A DNA stretch of 64,000 nucleotides, taken from the NCBI GenBank assembly GCA_030426665.1, contig JAUHYD010000015.1:1-64000 (forward strand), given 5' to 3'. The notes under the pieces were generated by a model. It worked only from the letters and a program-made list of their open reading frames with translations. It searched no databases and had not been told where the DNA came from. The first letter of the stretch is position 1, and every line of letters starts with the position of its first letter. The stretch is from Bacteroidia bacterium (GTDB lineage Bacteria > Bacteroidota > Bacteroidia > Chitinophagales > Chitinophagaceae). Below, piece by piece: positions 31,696 through 35,683 of this stretch. Both the position numbers and the translations under genes were made by a program.

Positions 31696-32015
31696 ATGAA
31701 AATACTTTTCTCGATTATTGGGTGTGTTTTTTATACGGTTTCATTTTCACAGCGGCTTCCAGTTGAGTTGAAACGAAATTGGGTAGCAGGCAGAACTATG
31801 AGAAGTACAATAGTAATAATACCAACTATCAGTTTTGGCGTCAGGATAACCATCCATTGATACTCAATGAAAACGGCAGATATGGCAAAGCTCTCGAGTA
31901 TATTCACCAAAACCCGACAACAGCTGGCTTGGTGGACGATTTGCTATCGTACCCATGGAGCAGCGCAAAGGACTATGCAGGCGGGACAGGCTTGATACCT
32001 ATTGTTATATTGTAG
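31696..32015 (+). pseudogene. Chimeric remnant: truncated signal peptide plus C-terminus of a REP-associated (Y1/IS200-like) transposase
   Basis: Two broken parts in different frames. From 31696 an ATG opens a typical signal peptide (MKILFSIIGCVFYTVSFSQ) that soon runs into unrelated sequence. From about 31780 another frame encodes the C-terminal ~75 residues of a REP-associated tyrosine transposase: NYEKYNSNNTNYQFWRQDNH, then YIHQNPTTAGLV and YPWSSAKDYAGG. The N-terminal HUH (His-x-His) region is absent, so it cannot be active. Two REP-like hairpins follow directly, as expected for a relic of a RAYT-REP unit that landed in, or was recombined with, an exported-protein gene. Confidence 0.8.
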
Positions 32016-32768: not shown

Positions 32769-32823
32769 TAAGGATACTTCATCAATTGTCGTTGTTCCTC
32801 CGACCTGTCATAAGGGGCTAACC

Positions 32824-33066
32824 TGGTCCTTGATAATGTCAGCGTCAAGCAGACGACACGAGTTTCAGACTTGCGAACGAGCTGTCTTATTATACGGCAA
32901 GCATGGCAATATCCTGCCGCCCAAAATGGGGGGTATGATTTGTCGCAAGAGTGACGCTTGCCAGTGTATCGACAAGGCGAGACACCTCGACCAGTATGGG
33001 TGGACATTTTACTGGCGTTAAAAACGCCGTGCCAAAGCATCCGAGTTGCAAACTCGGACGAGTGGG
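32824..33066 (+). repeat. Dispersed repeat family B, full copy 2 (about 243 bp)
   Basis: Matches 28681-28893 over its full length, apart from a ~30-bp insertion near 32898-32928 and scattered changes. The 3-prime block from GCGTTAAAAACGC through CCGAGTTGCAAACTCGG to GACGAGTGGG is identical in both copies over more than 45 bp. The first palindrome is degraded here. Confidence 0.85.
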
Positions 33067-33156
33067 GGACTTGCATAATGGGGCCAAATGGGGACTATGC
33101 TTTTCTTACATAATTACTTGCGCCAGACGCGGGAAAACAACAAAGATTTATTAATT

Positions 33157-33462
33157 TCACGTAAATTCTTCTTCATCTAATAAATGTAGCAGGGCAAAAA
33201 CAGGAGATGTTATATGTGTAATTCCGAATTTCCTTAATGCTGTTGGATTACTTTTATATAAACCAGTGTCAGCTTTGTAAGCATCAATTCCAGTCAAAAT
33301 TTTTTCAAAAGGTATTCGAGCATCCTTGCTGTTTTCACGACCAACGAAAATAGAGTTTTCAGTTTCTCGGATATACACAAATGATTTATAGCCTTCAACT
33401 TTAGCCACTGTTCTGTCTTTAAAGCGTTGGAGTATTTTTCCTAAAAGTATTTTTGAATCCAT
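33157..33462 (-). CDS. Hypothetical small protein
   Basis: Soluble protein of 101 residues on the opposite strand to its neighbours, no export signal. It has a lysine-rich N-terminus, a beta-rich centre (VEGYKSFVYIRETENSIFVGRE) and a C-terminal helix ending HITSPVFALLHLLDEEEF. The PFEKILTGIDAYK...LRKFGITHITSPVFALL pattern looks like a conserved domain, possibly one associated with defence or nucleic-acid proteins, but I cannot name it. AT-rich, within the repeat-punctuated island. Confidence 0.6.
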   Translation of the reverse strand: MDSKILLGKILQRFKDRTVAKVEGYKSFVYIRETENSIFVGRENSKDARIPFEKILTGIDAYKADTGLYKSNPTALRKFGITHITSPVFALLHLLDEEEFT

Positions 33463-33591: not shown

Positions 33592-33631
33592 AAAATATGT
33601 ACAACTTGTTAAGTTAAAATATGTATATTTG
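33592..33631 (+). promoter_or_regulatory. Promoter with structured candidate operator for the XRE/ImmA gene pair
   Basis: AAAATATGTA occurs at 33592-33601 and again at 33616-33625. Exactly between them lies the inverted repeat AACTT-GTT-AAGTT (33603-33615). The second direct repeat overlaps the -7 element TATATTTG (33624-33631), and the inverted repeat covers a possible -33 TTG. A repressor bound here would block the promoter; the XRE protein encoded downstream is the natural candidate. Confidence 0.5.
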
Positions 33632-33640
33632 CTGAATTAA

Positions 33641-33672
33641 AAATCCCCGTGTGGGGCGGGGATGATTTTTTA
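33641..33672 (+). terminator. Leader hairpin (attenuator-like) just after the promoter
   Basis: AAAAATCCCC...GGGGAT then ATTTTTT, starting about 10 nt after the -7 element and ending ~20 nt before the next start codon. It could be an early terminator or attenuator, a 5-prime stability hairpin, or a terminator of upstream transcription. Confidence 0.5.
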
Positions 33673-33691
33673 ACTATTTAAATAGTCGATT

Positions 33692-34318
33692 ATGATGACA
33701 AATGTACAATTCCTTTTTGACATGGGCAAGCTTTTAAAAAGACCGACGCCTGACCAAAGTCAATTTGAAACAGAAAATTATGAATTATTGAAGTCATTAC
33801 CCGAGTCTGTGTATACAGCATTTGAAATGACAAGAAACGAAATGAAGGATAAAGATCCTTTGTCTATGAACTTTCTTTGGTTTGCAAATAGTATGAATGG
33901 AAATGTATTGGCAGTGATTGGCAAGTCACACCGTCAATTTATCAGACCAACTGGAAGAAAGAATTATAGCCTGATGCTTAAGCCTAATTATGAATGTTAT
34001 ATCAAAAAGCTAGCTGAAAATACGCTATTGCCATCTTACAATCATACTAATACGTCAGCGGCAATGTGTGAGCAATTCGCCATGCCTGAACAATCACCGT
34101 TGCCAGTAATATTTATAGGCTACACGTTGAGTAAAACAAATGATAAGGTTACCGGGTGCTATGCGGTATGTATAAAGGGCAAGGAAAGGCTGTGGGTGTC
34201 TGACCTTTCATCTTTATACCCACCTGCAAGTGGCAACAATTTCATCTTACCTAATACACCAATAATGACTCACCCAGAAGTCGAGGTGAAAGTAAGAGTA
34301 AAGAAAAAAGCACAATAA
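33692..34318 (+). CDS. Hypothetical protein paired with an XRE-ImmA regulator
   Basis: Unrecognised soluble protein, 208 residues. No signal, no clear catalytic motif. Mixed helix and beta: an N-terminal helical part (ENYELLKSLPESVYTAFEMTRNEMK), a central strand-rich part (GNVLAVIGKSHRQFI; SPLPVIFIGYTLS; TGCYAVCIKGKERLWVSDLSS) and a basic end (KVRVKKKAQ). It lies 45 nt upstream of the XRE-ImmA/IrrE gene under a promoter with a candidate operator. It may be the toxin, effector or protease substrate of that regulator, in the manner of known ImmA/ImmR and toxin-antitoxin pairs; this is inference. Confidence 0.7.
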   Translation: MMTNVQFLFDMGKLLKRPTPDQSQFETENYELLKSLPESVYTAFEMTRNEMKDKDPLSMNFLWFANSMNGNVLAVIGKSHRQFIRPTGRKNYSLMLKPNYECYIKKLAENTLLPSYNHTNTSAAMCEQFAMPEQSPLPVIFIGYTLSKTNDKVTGCYAVCIKGKERLWVSDLSSLYPPASGNNFILPNTPIMTHPEVEVKVRVKKKAQ

Positions 34319-34363
34319 TTTGAATAGGCAACCCCACTGCCTGTTCTTTAAAACACAACAAAT

Positions 34364-35683
34364 ATGACTATAGTTAACAGCAGCATGTTGGTACTCGCCC
34401 GAGAGTCAAGAGGAAAGACGCAGCAAGAGATAGTAGCTATGGTTCCAAACCTCAATCAGGGCAATTATTCAAAAATGGAGAAAGGGTTACTAAATGTGCC
34501 CGATGAAACAATGCTAAACATCGCGAAATGTCTAGATTATCCCGTTTCCTTTTTCTACAAAAAAGGCGTTCACACTCCGATATCAAGCTTCTACTATCGA
34601 AAAAGAGTAAGTATGCCGAAAAAAAGTCTATCGTTGCTTGAGGCAAAACTGGACGTCATTAGATTATGTGTAGATGAACTACTAGATTCAGTTGAAGTGC
34701 CTGAATTTAAGATACCGCATTTCGAAATTACCGACAATTTTACAGCGACAGAAGTGGCGATTCGGCTTAGAGAGTTTTTGAAAATCCCGAAAGGTCCAAT
34801 AAAAAACTTGATTAGGATTTTAGAAGCGGCAGGTATAATTGTTTATTTCGTAAATTTAAATATTGAAAAATTTGACGGGATTACTCTTATGACGGATATG
34901 GGTCAGCCAATCATTTTTATTAATGCTTCATTGCCCAATGATAGAAAAAAATTTACCATTGCTCACGAGCTCATACACTTAGTTTCACATATTCCATTTA
35001 GCCCACTCGACAGCATTCGAGATGTTGAGGCCGAGGCTAATGAAGGTGCGGCAGAATTCTTGATGCCTTATTTAGAGTGTAGAAATGATTTACAGGGTTT
35101 AAGGTATTCACAGCTTTCAATAATGAAGAGTTATTGGGGTGTTTCAAAAGCTATGGTCTTATTTAGAGCTAAGGAAATAAAAGCAATATCGCCAGGTAAG
35201 TGCACAAATTTATATATTGAACTAAGCAGAAATGGCGAAAGGAAGAAAGAAAATGGATACGTTGACTTGGAAGAACCGACTTTGTTTAATTTGGTTATAC
35301 ACACGTACGAGAACGAACTCGGGTATGCTCTCGAAGATATATTAGAAGTGTTGTCCTTGAGCCCCGCAGATTATTTTGAGTATTTCAGTCAATCAAAACA
35401 TAAAGTACAAGTAAGAATAAAACAAGTCATTGAATTTAACCCAAATAAAAGCAACAATACGATGAAAAAAAACCAACATGTTGTACCCAATAATGGCTCC
35501 TGGGCTGTAAAAGGAGAGGGTAATAGCAAAAAAACTGTAGTTACAGGAACGCAGTCTGAGGCTATTGAGATTGCAAGGAATATTGCCAAAAACCAAGGGA
35601 GCGAATTATTTATACACAATCGCAAAGGGCAAATACGAGAAAGAAATACGTACGGGGATGACCCTTATCCGCCTAAGGGATAA
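34364..35683 (+). CDS. XRE helix-turn-helix / ImmA-IrrE metallopeptidase with fused DUF2188 domain
   Basis: Regulator-protease of 439 residues with three parts. Residues 1-65 are an XRE helix-turn-helix (QQEIVAMVPNLNQGNYSKMEKG). Residues ~140-300 are an ImmA/IrrE zinc peptidase with H201-E-L-I-H205 and a downstream glutamate segment (EAEANEGAAEFL). Residues ~367-439 form a DUF2188 domain (QHVVPNNGSWAVKGEG, IAKNQGSELFIH, DPYPPKG). In ImmA systems the peptidase cleaves a partner repressor. DUF2188 proteins are usually separate small genes, and M367 (35462) sits exactly where such a gene would start, so this looks like a gene fusion; internal translation is possible. Zinc ligands appear intact. 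Confidence 0.88.
   Translation: MTIVNSSMLVLARESRGKTQQEIVAMVPNLNQGNYSKMEKGLLNVPDETMLNIAKCLDYPVSFFYKKGVHTPISSFYYRKRVSMPKKSLSLLEAKLDVIRLCVDELLDSVEVPEFKIPHFEITDNFTATEVAIRLREFLKIPKGPIKNLIRILEAAGIIVYFVNLNIEKFDGITLMTDMGQPIIFINASLPNDRKKFTIAHELIHLVSHIPFSPLDSIRDVEAEANEGAAEFLMPYLECRNDLQGLRYSQLSIMKSYWGVSKAMVLFRAKEIKAISPGKCTNLYIELSRNGERKKENGYVDLEEPTLFNLVIHTYENELGYALEDILEVLSLSPADYFEYFSQSKHKVQVRIKQVIEFNPNKSNNTMKKNQHVVPNNGSWAVKGEGNSKKTVVTGTQSEAIEIARNIAKNQGSELFIHNRKGQIRERNTYGDDPYPPKG

Follow-up and report, generated by a model that had tools for sequence, protein, structure and literature searches.

A two-gene operon in a 64,000-nt window of DNA from a Bacteroidia bacterium (Chitinophagaceae; GCA_030426665.1, contig JAUHYD010000015.1) raises the question of what a protein of 208 amino acids (aa) without catalogued relatives has to do with a 439-aa regulator that joins an XRE helix-turn-helix (HTH), an ImmA/IrrE zinc peptidase and a DUF2188 domain in one chain. 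Both open reading frames (ORFs) are intact and lie on one strand, with 45 nt between them. We conclude from comparison with characterized relatives that the operon is quite probably a toxin-antitoxin (TA) module of the RosmerTA type, in which the 208-aa protein would represent the toxin of an uncatalogued family and the 439-aa protein an RmrA-type antitoxin. A previous reading of the window, made from the sequence alone, had suggested a possible defence switch, with which the RmrA-like regulator and the RosmerTA layout agree. The strongest results are the identification of a family for the apparent orphan and its fixed pairing with the regulator; the weakest concern the function of the module and the meaning of the DUF2188 fusion, which is represented by one sequence.

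The domain composition of the 439-aa protein was deduced from several profile collections. Pfam recognized the Peptidase_M78 domain (1.5e-15) as well as DUF2188 (PF09954) at residues 371-430 (3.2e-25), the latter with 88.5 bits against a gathering score of 22. The RmrA models of PADLOC span residues 4-344 (best value 2.5e-47), the PADLOC model PDC-S16 covers residues 367-439 (2.9e-35), and PHROGs contributed matches to phrog_2439 (6e-69) and phrog_3220 (1.8e-31). Pfam HTH_3 stayed below its cut-off on its own (15.8 versus 23 bits); the XRE part is backed by the PADLOC RmrA models, by phrog_2439 and by a profile match to HTH proteins of solved structure. Across 33 aligned rows H201, E202, H205 and E222 are nearly invariant, and since E222 is presumably the third zinc ligand, both the HExxH motif and the conserved downstream Glu of M78 peptidases are present. 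In the AlphaFold model of the full-length protein (predicted local distance difference test, pLDDT, 86.6; predicted template modelling score, pTM, 0.75) residues 345-367 have pLDDT values below 50, and DUF2188 folds separately after this disordered stretch, at which related RmrA proteins terminate in the alignment. In the alignment, two stand-alone DUF2188 proteins (53-55% identical) have their first residue at M367 (position 35462). Domain matches, alignment and pLDDT values thus agree with the sequence-only reading, which had placed an XRE domain, an intact HELIH motif and a C-terminal DUF2188 in one protein with the boundary of the domains falling exactly on M367.

The 208-aa protein yielded no family above chance in Pfam, PADLOC, NCBIfam or PHROGs. 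As a lone query it retrieved, apart from its own genome, nothing related from 395 Bacteroidota genomes, nor from phages, plasmids or viral contigs. A match of 56 aa with 34% identity in one of 60 relatives of the host (G017) was rejected as spurious, the locus containing three stops and no open frame. Since a single-sequence search finds no convincing relative, the family surfaced only by way of the RmrA partner. XRE-ImmA relatives were gathered from the best 80 bacterial-genome loci and the best 80 viral-contig loci, along with plasmids and other Bacteroidota genomes; RmrA lay on the minus strand in 8 of the 192 loci, which were dropped, and 23 of the resulting 184 were devoid of an upstream ORF according to a distance rule. 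ORFs below 150 aa were excluded from the family set and, in the profile-building search, also those above 330 aa. Of the 161 loci with an upstream ORF (duplicates included), 105 have a member of the 208-aa family directly upstream of RmrA, and the family is present at 43 of the 80 bacterial-genome loci and 53 of the 80 viral loci. A profile of 81 members that was built without the window sequence assigned 60.7 bits to the 208-aa protein (E 5e-16 per 100,000 sequences), as compared with 7.7 bits for the best of 2000 shuffled copies. Strongly conserved residues of the family include K105 (69/74 members), K106 (63/74), T119 (72/73) and W168 (67/74). The alignment A3 comprises 67 of 69 eligible members (L056 and L062 omitted; locus handles are given as L numbers), five further members being ineligible, and no model of Pfam, PADLOC or NCBIfam matches more than one of the 67. 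The statement of the sequence-only reading that the partner has no known family therefore holds for catalogued families, but by profile comparison the protein is a member of a large family that is uncatalogued in the profile sets searched, and not an orphan. Newness is meant here relative to the profiles of PADLOC-DB 2.0, Pfam and NCBIfam, and we do not claim that the family is unpublished. A frameshifted or decayed toxin gene accompanies an intact RmrA gene in a metagenome-assembled genome of the Cytophagales (L044), its sequence being divided between two ORFs that overlap (2370-2711 and 2638-2994).

As the first locus set was selected by RmrA, the pairing as seen from the side of the partner rests on two partner-based searches. 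The family model matched 112 ORFs in the RmrA-selected set, none of which is unlinked to RmrA. A toxin-only search with a proteobacterial sub-alignment detected 14 viral loci, all with RmrA directly downstream (9 contigs already met via RmrA and 5 new), and toxin profiles run against 395 and 296 Bacteroidota genomes returned the same five positives each time, all adjoining RmrA. Members of the family standing apart from XRE-ImmA, which the sequence-only reading had named as the observation that would speak against it, were thus not found in these loci and genomes. The two genes are tightly coupled, many of them overlapping by 4 nt. None of 34 further congeneric genomes contains the pair, the lone toxin match among them being spurious. 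In a quickly built tree with 159 distinct RmrA proteins (duplicates L001, L003, L064 and L113-L117 removed, also from the counts by collection) the presence of the toxin family requires seven changes, compared with a mean of 52.1 after shuffling and with none of 500 shuffles as low, and it therefore marks a coherent branch instead of a random neighbour. Partners outside the family are often catalogued RmrT proteins (7 of 9 scanned), and the respective RmrA proteins sit in another part of the tree. Five XRE-ImmA proteins of the same branch (L031, L061, L063, L065 and L067) are without an upstream toxin ORF under the distance rule; one of them, on an Acinetobacter seifertii plasmid (L031), is followed by a CBASS-like block of nucleotidyltransferase, ThiF, Mov34 and SAVED genes. 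A related operon on the Hymenobacter plasmid NZ_CP053905.1 (L028) is flanked by the BREX gene brxL on one side and a nucleotidyltransferase/SAVED block on the other, and so seems to be part of a defence island.

The pairing data also bear on the idea that the 439-aa protein is no more than a transcriptional regulator belonging to a mobile element, and that its neighbour gene is functionally unrelated. This would match the label 'transcriptional regulator' of phrog_2439 and the regulation of the element ICEBs1 by ImmR/ImmA (described in PMC2701414), but the two genes stay together, in one order, in several phyla and in viral contigs, and inspection by eye of the listed ORFs of the window revealed neither an integrase nor a conjugation gene, so that we regard this explanation as very unlikely.

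In RosmerTA systems, diverse toxins are combined with an antitoxin that has an ImmA domain and often an HTH; the systems were tested as phage defence and do protect against phage, and the gene order at the ImmA node is toxin-first in 58% according to PMC10440598. The operon resembles RosmerTA, as exemplified by Gordonia phage Kita, in its two genes, the XRE and ImmA zinc-peptidase parts of the antitoxin, the toxin-first order and a partner of about 200 aa. It differs in that the toxin matches no RmrT model of PADLOC, the RmrA proteins paired with this toxin family occupy a separate part of the tree and DUF2188 is fused to the antitoxin. An ImmA/M78 antitoxin with an N-terminal HTH and an adjacent partner in the same operon were accordingly found, a catalogued RmrT partner was not. 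Because the partner matches no RmrT profile, the operon is referred to as RosmerTA-type and not as catalogued RosmerTA; this is a criterion of the catalogue, and the published RmrT proteins differ among themselves. The pneumococcal RipAB pair (Spr1630/Spr1629 of Streptococcus pneumoniae), which PMC12795458 places in the Rosmer family, likewise contains an XRE-ImmA antitoxin: RipB antagonizes RipA, whose toxicity was shown and whose suppressors map to the clamp DnaN. The antitoxin of the window differs from it in scoring below the NCBIfam spr1629 cut-off, and the RmrT group whose antitoxins rank among the best spr1629 scorers (L182, L184) revealed no clear link to the 208-aa family, RipA itself lying outside the comparison. 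By analogy with these systems, the 208-aa protein is a likely toxin. If this is correct, RosmerTA-like systems hold another large toxin family that is missing from PADLOC-DB 2.0, Pfam and NCBIfam, and the corresponding loci would be missed or half-annotated.

Several points weigh against this assignment. None of the 67 family members matches a PADLOC RmrT model, and profile-profile comparison gave no link between the family and the RmrT groups, the catalogued RmrT groups being also unrelated to one another. The NCBIfam spr1629 antitoxin model NF052239 reached 75.9 bits on the 439-aa protein, compared with a cut-off of 335, and the XRE operator of the operon is a candidate deduced from a short palindrome. 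No published toxicity, binding or phage results for the 208-aa family were met in the accessible parts of the RosmerTA and RipAB literature, and the NetFlax authors had difficulty in telling toxin from antitoxin for a lineage off the ImmA zone (PMC10440598).

The roles of the two proteins might be conceived as reversed, with the XRE-ImmA-DUF2188 protein as an effector protease and the 208-aa protein as its substrate or inhibitor. Xre-COG2856 fusions in TA operons were described in 2009 by Makarova et al., who proposed COG2856 as the toxin of such pairs (PMC2701414), and the disordered basic C-terminal tail that is predicted for the 208-aa family (residues ~180-208, with conserved P195 and K204) could serve as a cleavage or docking site. 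The ImmA-type protein is, however, the antitoxin in the experiments reported for RipAB (PMC12795458) and for RosmerTA of phage Kita (PMC10440598), and in related loci the place of the partner is taken by PIN-like proteins (judged by eye) and catalogued RmrTs; a reversal of roles is consequently quite unlikely. Of the two options in the sequence-only reading, self-regulation or cleavage of the partner, the former is retained in the form of an autorepressor, whereas an antitoxin fits better than a protease with the partner as main substrate.

For a RosmerTA-type module the following course of events can be envisaged. In the resting state the XRE domain would repress the shared promoter by autorepression at 33592-33639, and the RmrA body would neutralize the 208-aa toxin. 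The trigger would be replicating phage or damaged DNA, possibly recognized in the form of single-stranded DNA (ssDNA), which appears plausible in terms of structural models because the closest solved folds of the antitoxin are those of PprI/IrrE (8sln, 3dte), one PprI having ssDNA bound. The triggered zinc peptidase would then cut the XRE part, either its own or that of a dimer partner, and cleavage would end repression and neutralization together, allowing the toxin to stop growth. DUF2188, tethered by the disordered linker, probably tunes sensing or activation. The M78-family HExxH peptidase is shared with IrrE/PprI, which acts along with DdrO, and with ImmA (COG2856), which acts along with ImmR. 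In IrrE/PprI systems the repressor is a separate protein. The same applies to ImmA/ImmR (as described in PMC2701414), whereas the operon of the window has repressor, peptidase and DUF2188 in one chain and, in addition, a partner gene.

The predicted structure of the 208-aa protein (pLDDT 87, pTM 0.78, with a disordered tail past residue 180) was examined with regard to its mode of action. Restriction enzymes from distinct families make up most of the top structural matches, namely NaeI (Z 7.6 and 6.9), DpnI (5.5), EcoRV (5.2) and SwaI (5.0), followed by HincII, BcnI and NlaIV, and Foldseek pointed to EcoRV, BglI, PvuII and NucC. The PD-(D/E)XK core has the layout alpha-beta-beta-beta-alpha-beta, which the order of elements in the model resembles. 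These likenesses are consistent with an active PD-(D/E)XK-fold nuclease that acts as a restriction-like suicide enzyme. However, no match in the comparison with the Protein Data Bank (PDB) reached Z 8, all values being inside the stated background, and the Foldseek E-values were at least 0.067; moreover, the (D/E)-x-K motif is absent, with none of the 74 members acidic two places before K105, and the most acidic column of the family alignment is acidic in at most 64% of the members. An active nuclease is therefore held unlikely, because the catalytic acids are missing in the family. A structural search of BFVD yielded nothing below E 0.001, and a sequence search of the PDB gave no match for DUF2188 and none that is convincing for the toxin profile. 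A non-catalytic role of the toxin on DNA or the clamp may be put forward as a speculation.

Prompted by the action of RipA on DnaN, the family was scanned with the clamp-binding consensus. The strict motif occurs in 5 of 74 members, compared with a mean of 0.33 and a maximum of 3 in shuffled sequences and with 1 of 159 RmrA proteins, the relatedness of the members being uncorrected in these counts. Clamp-binding-like peptides in some members read QLGLF, QLSLF and QLSLW; the 208-aa protein of the window is without a canonical motif and contains QFAMP and an N-terminal QFLFD. An N-terminal 'LF' motif, defined post hoc, was found in 8 of 19 members of the Bacteroidota group (shuffled mean 4.1; 14 of 500 shuffles as high) and in 4 of the remaining 55 (shuffled mean 3.7). 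A more far-reaching proposal would treat the operon as belonging to a separate, multi-phylum branch of antiviral TA systems, whose toxin has a restriction-endonuclease-like core that has lost the catalytic acids and would block growth by holding on to DNA or to the replication clamp instead of cutting, and whose RmrA guard has its trigger read by DUF2188, a portable sensor that relatives encode separately and that is fused in this operon; we rate this combination as quite improbable.

DUF2188 is fused to RmrA in the window only, i.e. in 1 of 159 distinct RmrA proteins, and elsewhere stands beside RmrA-type genes as its own gene, in agreement with the sequence-only reading that it is usually separate. 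These stand-alone genes are located 16 to ~300 nt downstream of RmrA or in divergent orientation. The full-length domain (PDC-S16, phrog_3220) is 53-55% identical to DUF2188 genes beside Hymenobacter RmrA operons, where two loci (L028, identical with L064, and L071) carry it downstream of the same kind of operon. It also follows a catalogued RmrT-RmrA pair on a plasmid of Methylocaldum, and in a viral contig (L169/L217) it precedes the toxin gene by about 15 nt in divergent orientation. Altogether, 3 of the 160 genome and viral RmrA loci (L064, L071 and L169) contain DUF2188. Chance adjacency is unlikely, because only 9 occurrences in 8 genomes were counted among 60 relatives of the host, a density that refers to host relatives. 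Conversely, 14 loci with a stand-alone DUF2188 gene included one with RmrA nearby (L016, divergent) and one with a marginal match (L027), so that the link is recurrent but not general.

The fusion could also be accidental, resulting from loss of a stop codon or a sequencing error, with DUF2188 normally made from M367 and the working module consisting of toxin and plain RmrA. In favour of this view, fused DUF2188 is confined to a single RmrA protein, and the junction is an A-rich stretch with an ATG exactly at the start point of stand-alone DUF2188 proteins. On the other hand, the frame is open across the entire linker, DUF2188 is intact, and a disordered linker is the expected look of a tolerated fusion, as judged from one sequence. 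We consider an accident a doubtful explanation, albeit one to be reckoned with. As part of a RosmerTA-type module, DUF2188 may act as an accessory sensor or regulator. If so, a widespread small domain of no known function gains a testable place, and since the same parts are fused in the window and separate in Hymenobacter and the viral contig, the contribution of DUF2188 to an ImmA antitoxin becomes answerable. Judged by eye, DUF2188 also has neighbours that resemble AAA-ATPase and type I restriction genes, as well as small genes whose products begin with MSFE..FINCPFD. The latter adjoin four (L207 and L209-L211) of five stand-alone DUF2188 loci of the same genus (L206, L207, L209, L210 and L211) and showed no Pfam match in the two cases tested. 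Literature searches under PDC-S16 found nothing, and articles under DUF2188 appeared unrelated judging by their titles; PMC12457610 was set aside as a precedent, since its accessible text concerns RES-Xre.

The promoter regions of the Bacteroidota members have a further feature in common. The -7 consensus of Bacteroidota is TAnnTTTG, and in these members a stem-loop starts about 6-12 nt past such a box, close to where the presumed mRNA begins. Of 17 boxes preceding family genes, 9 have a hairpin score of at least 16 and 6 a score of at least 20; the corresponding numbers for the 190 other boxes of these loci are 8 and 0 (Fisher 3e-7 and 1e-7, respectively). The scoring was chosen after the leaders had been inspected, and L042 and L043 are close relatives. 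A shuffle test per locus was weak (p at most 0.05 in 8 of 19 loci of the Bacteroidota group and 8 of 57 others; p 0.07 in the window), and the case is therefore carried by the comparison with other -7 boxes. The hairpin may function as an attenuator or as a structure protecting the mRNA 5' end. Leader stem-loops were noted in the window (33643-33663) and in L011, L012, L034, L037, L041, L042, L043 and L132; in L012, L041 and L042/L043 a TTGGCG or TTGACG loop is closed by CTG-CAG or CTA-TAG. As a general signal past the -7 box this loop was discarded, as it occurred in 2 of 198 Bacteroidota genomes, in neither case ahead of a TA gene recognizable by eye. The features of the operon are compiled in Table 1.

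Table 1. Coordinates of the features of the operon within the window
Feature	Position	Strand	Basis
Candidate promoter/operator of the operon	33592..33639	+	box located by script
Palindrome AACTT-GTT-AAGTT, candidate XRE operator	33603-33615	+	short enough for chance occurrence
-7-like box TATATTTG	33624-33631	+	matched to Bacteroidota -7 consensus
GC-rich stem-loop, 11 nt past -7 box, then T-run	33643..33663	+	terminator-like site and fold
208-aa putative toxin gene	33692..34318	+	family profile, genomic pairing
439-aa XRE-ImmA/IrrE-DUF2188 gene, putative RmrA-type antitoxin/autorepressor	34364..35683	+	Pfam, PADLOC, PHROGs, alignment, AlphaFold
XRE helix-turn-helix, residues ~8-66	34385..34561	+	sub-threshold HTH_3, profile to solved HTH proteins, AlphaFold
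ImmA/IrrE (M78) zinc-peptidase domain, residues 154-269	34823..35170	+	Pfam, alignment, solved folds
HELIH motif, residues 201-205	34964-34978	+	alignment
Disordered linker, residues 345-366; other RmrA proteins end here	35396..35461	+	pLDDT, alignment
DUF2188 domain, residues 367-439; internal ATG at start point of stand-alone DUF2188 genes	35462..35680	+	Pfam, PADLOC, PHROGs, alignment

The G+C content of the cassette is 0.37-0.41, compared with 0.525 in the adjoining ROK-like gene. A transposase-like fragment recognized by eye at 31779-32015, which has no Pfam match, is possibly tied to a REP-like repeat at 32780-33160. The repeat occurs at 15 places in the host genome including the query, most matches being ~40-70 nt long. 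The repeats of the island, which the sequence-only reading had taken as support for a mobile module, are thus real, but they are scattered through the host genome and say little on mobility, which is better argued by the patchy occurrence of the module and its many viral and plasmid homologues.

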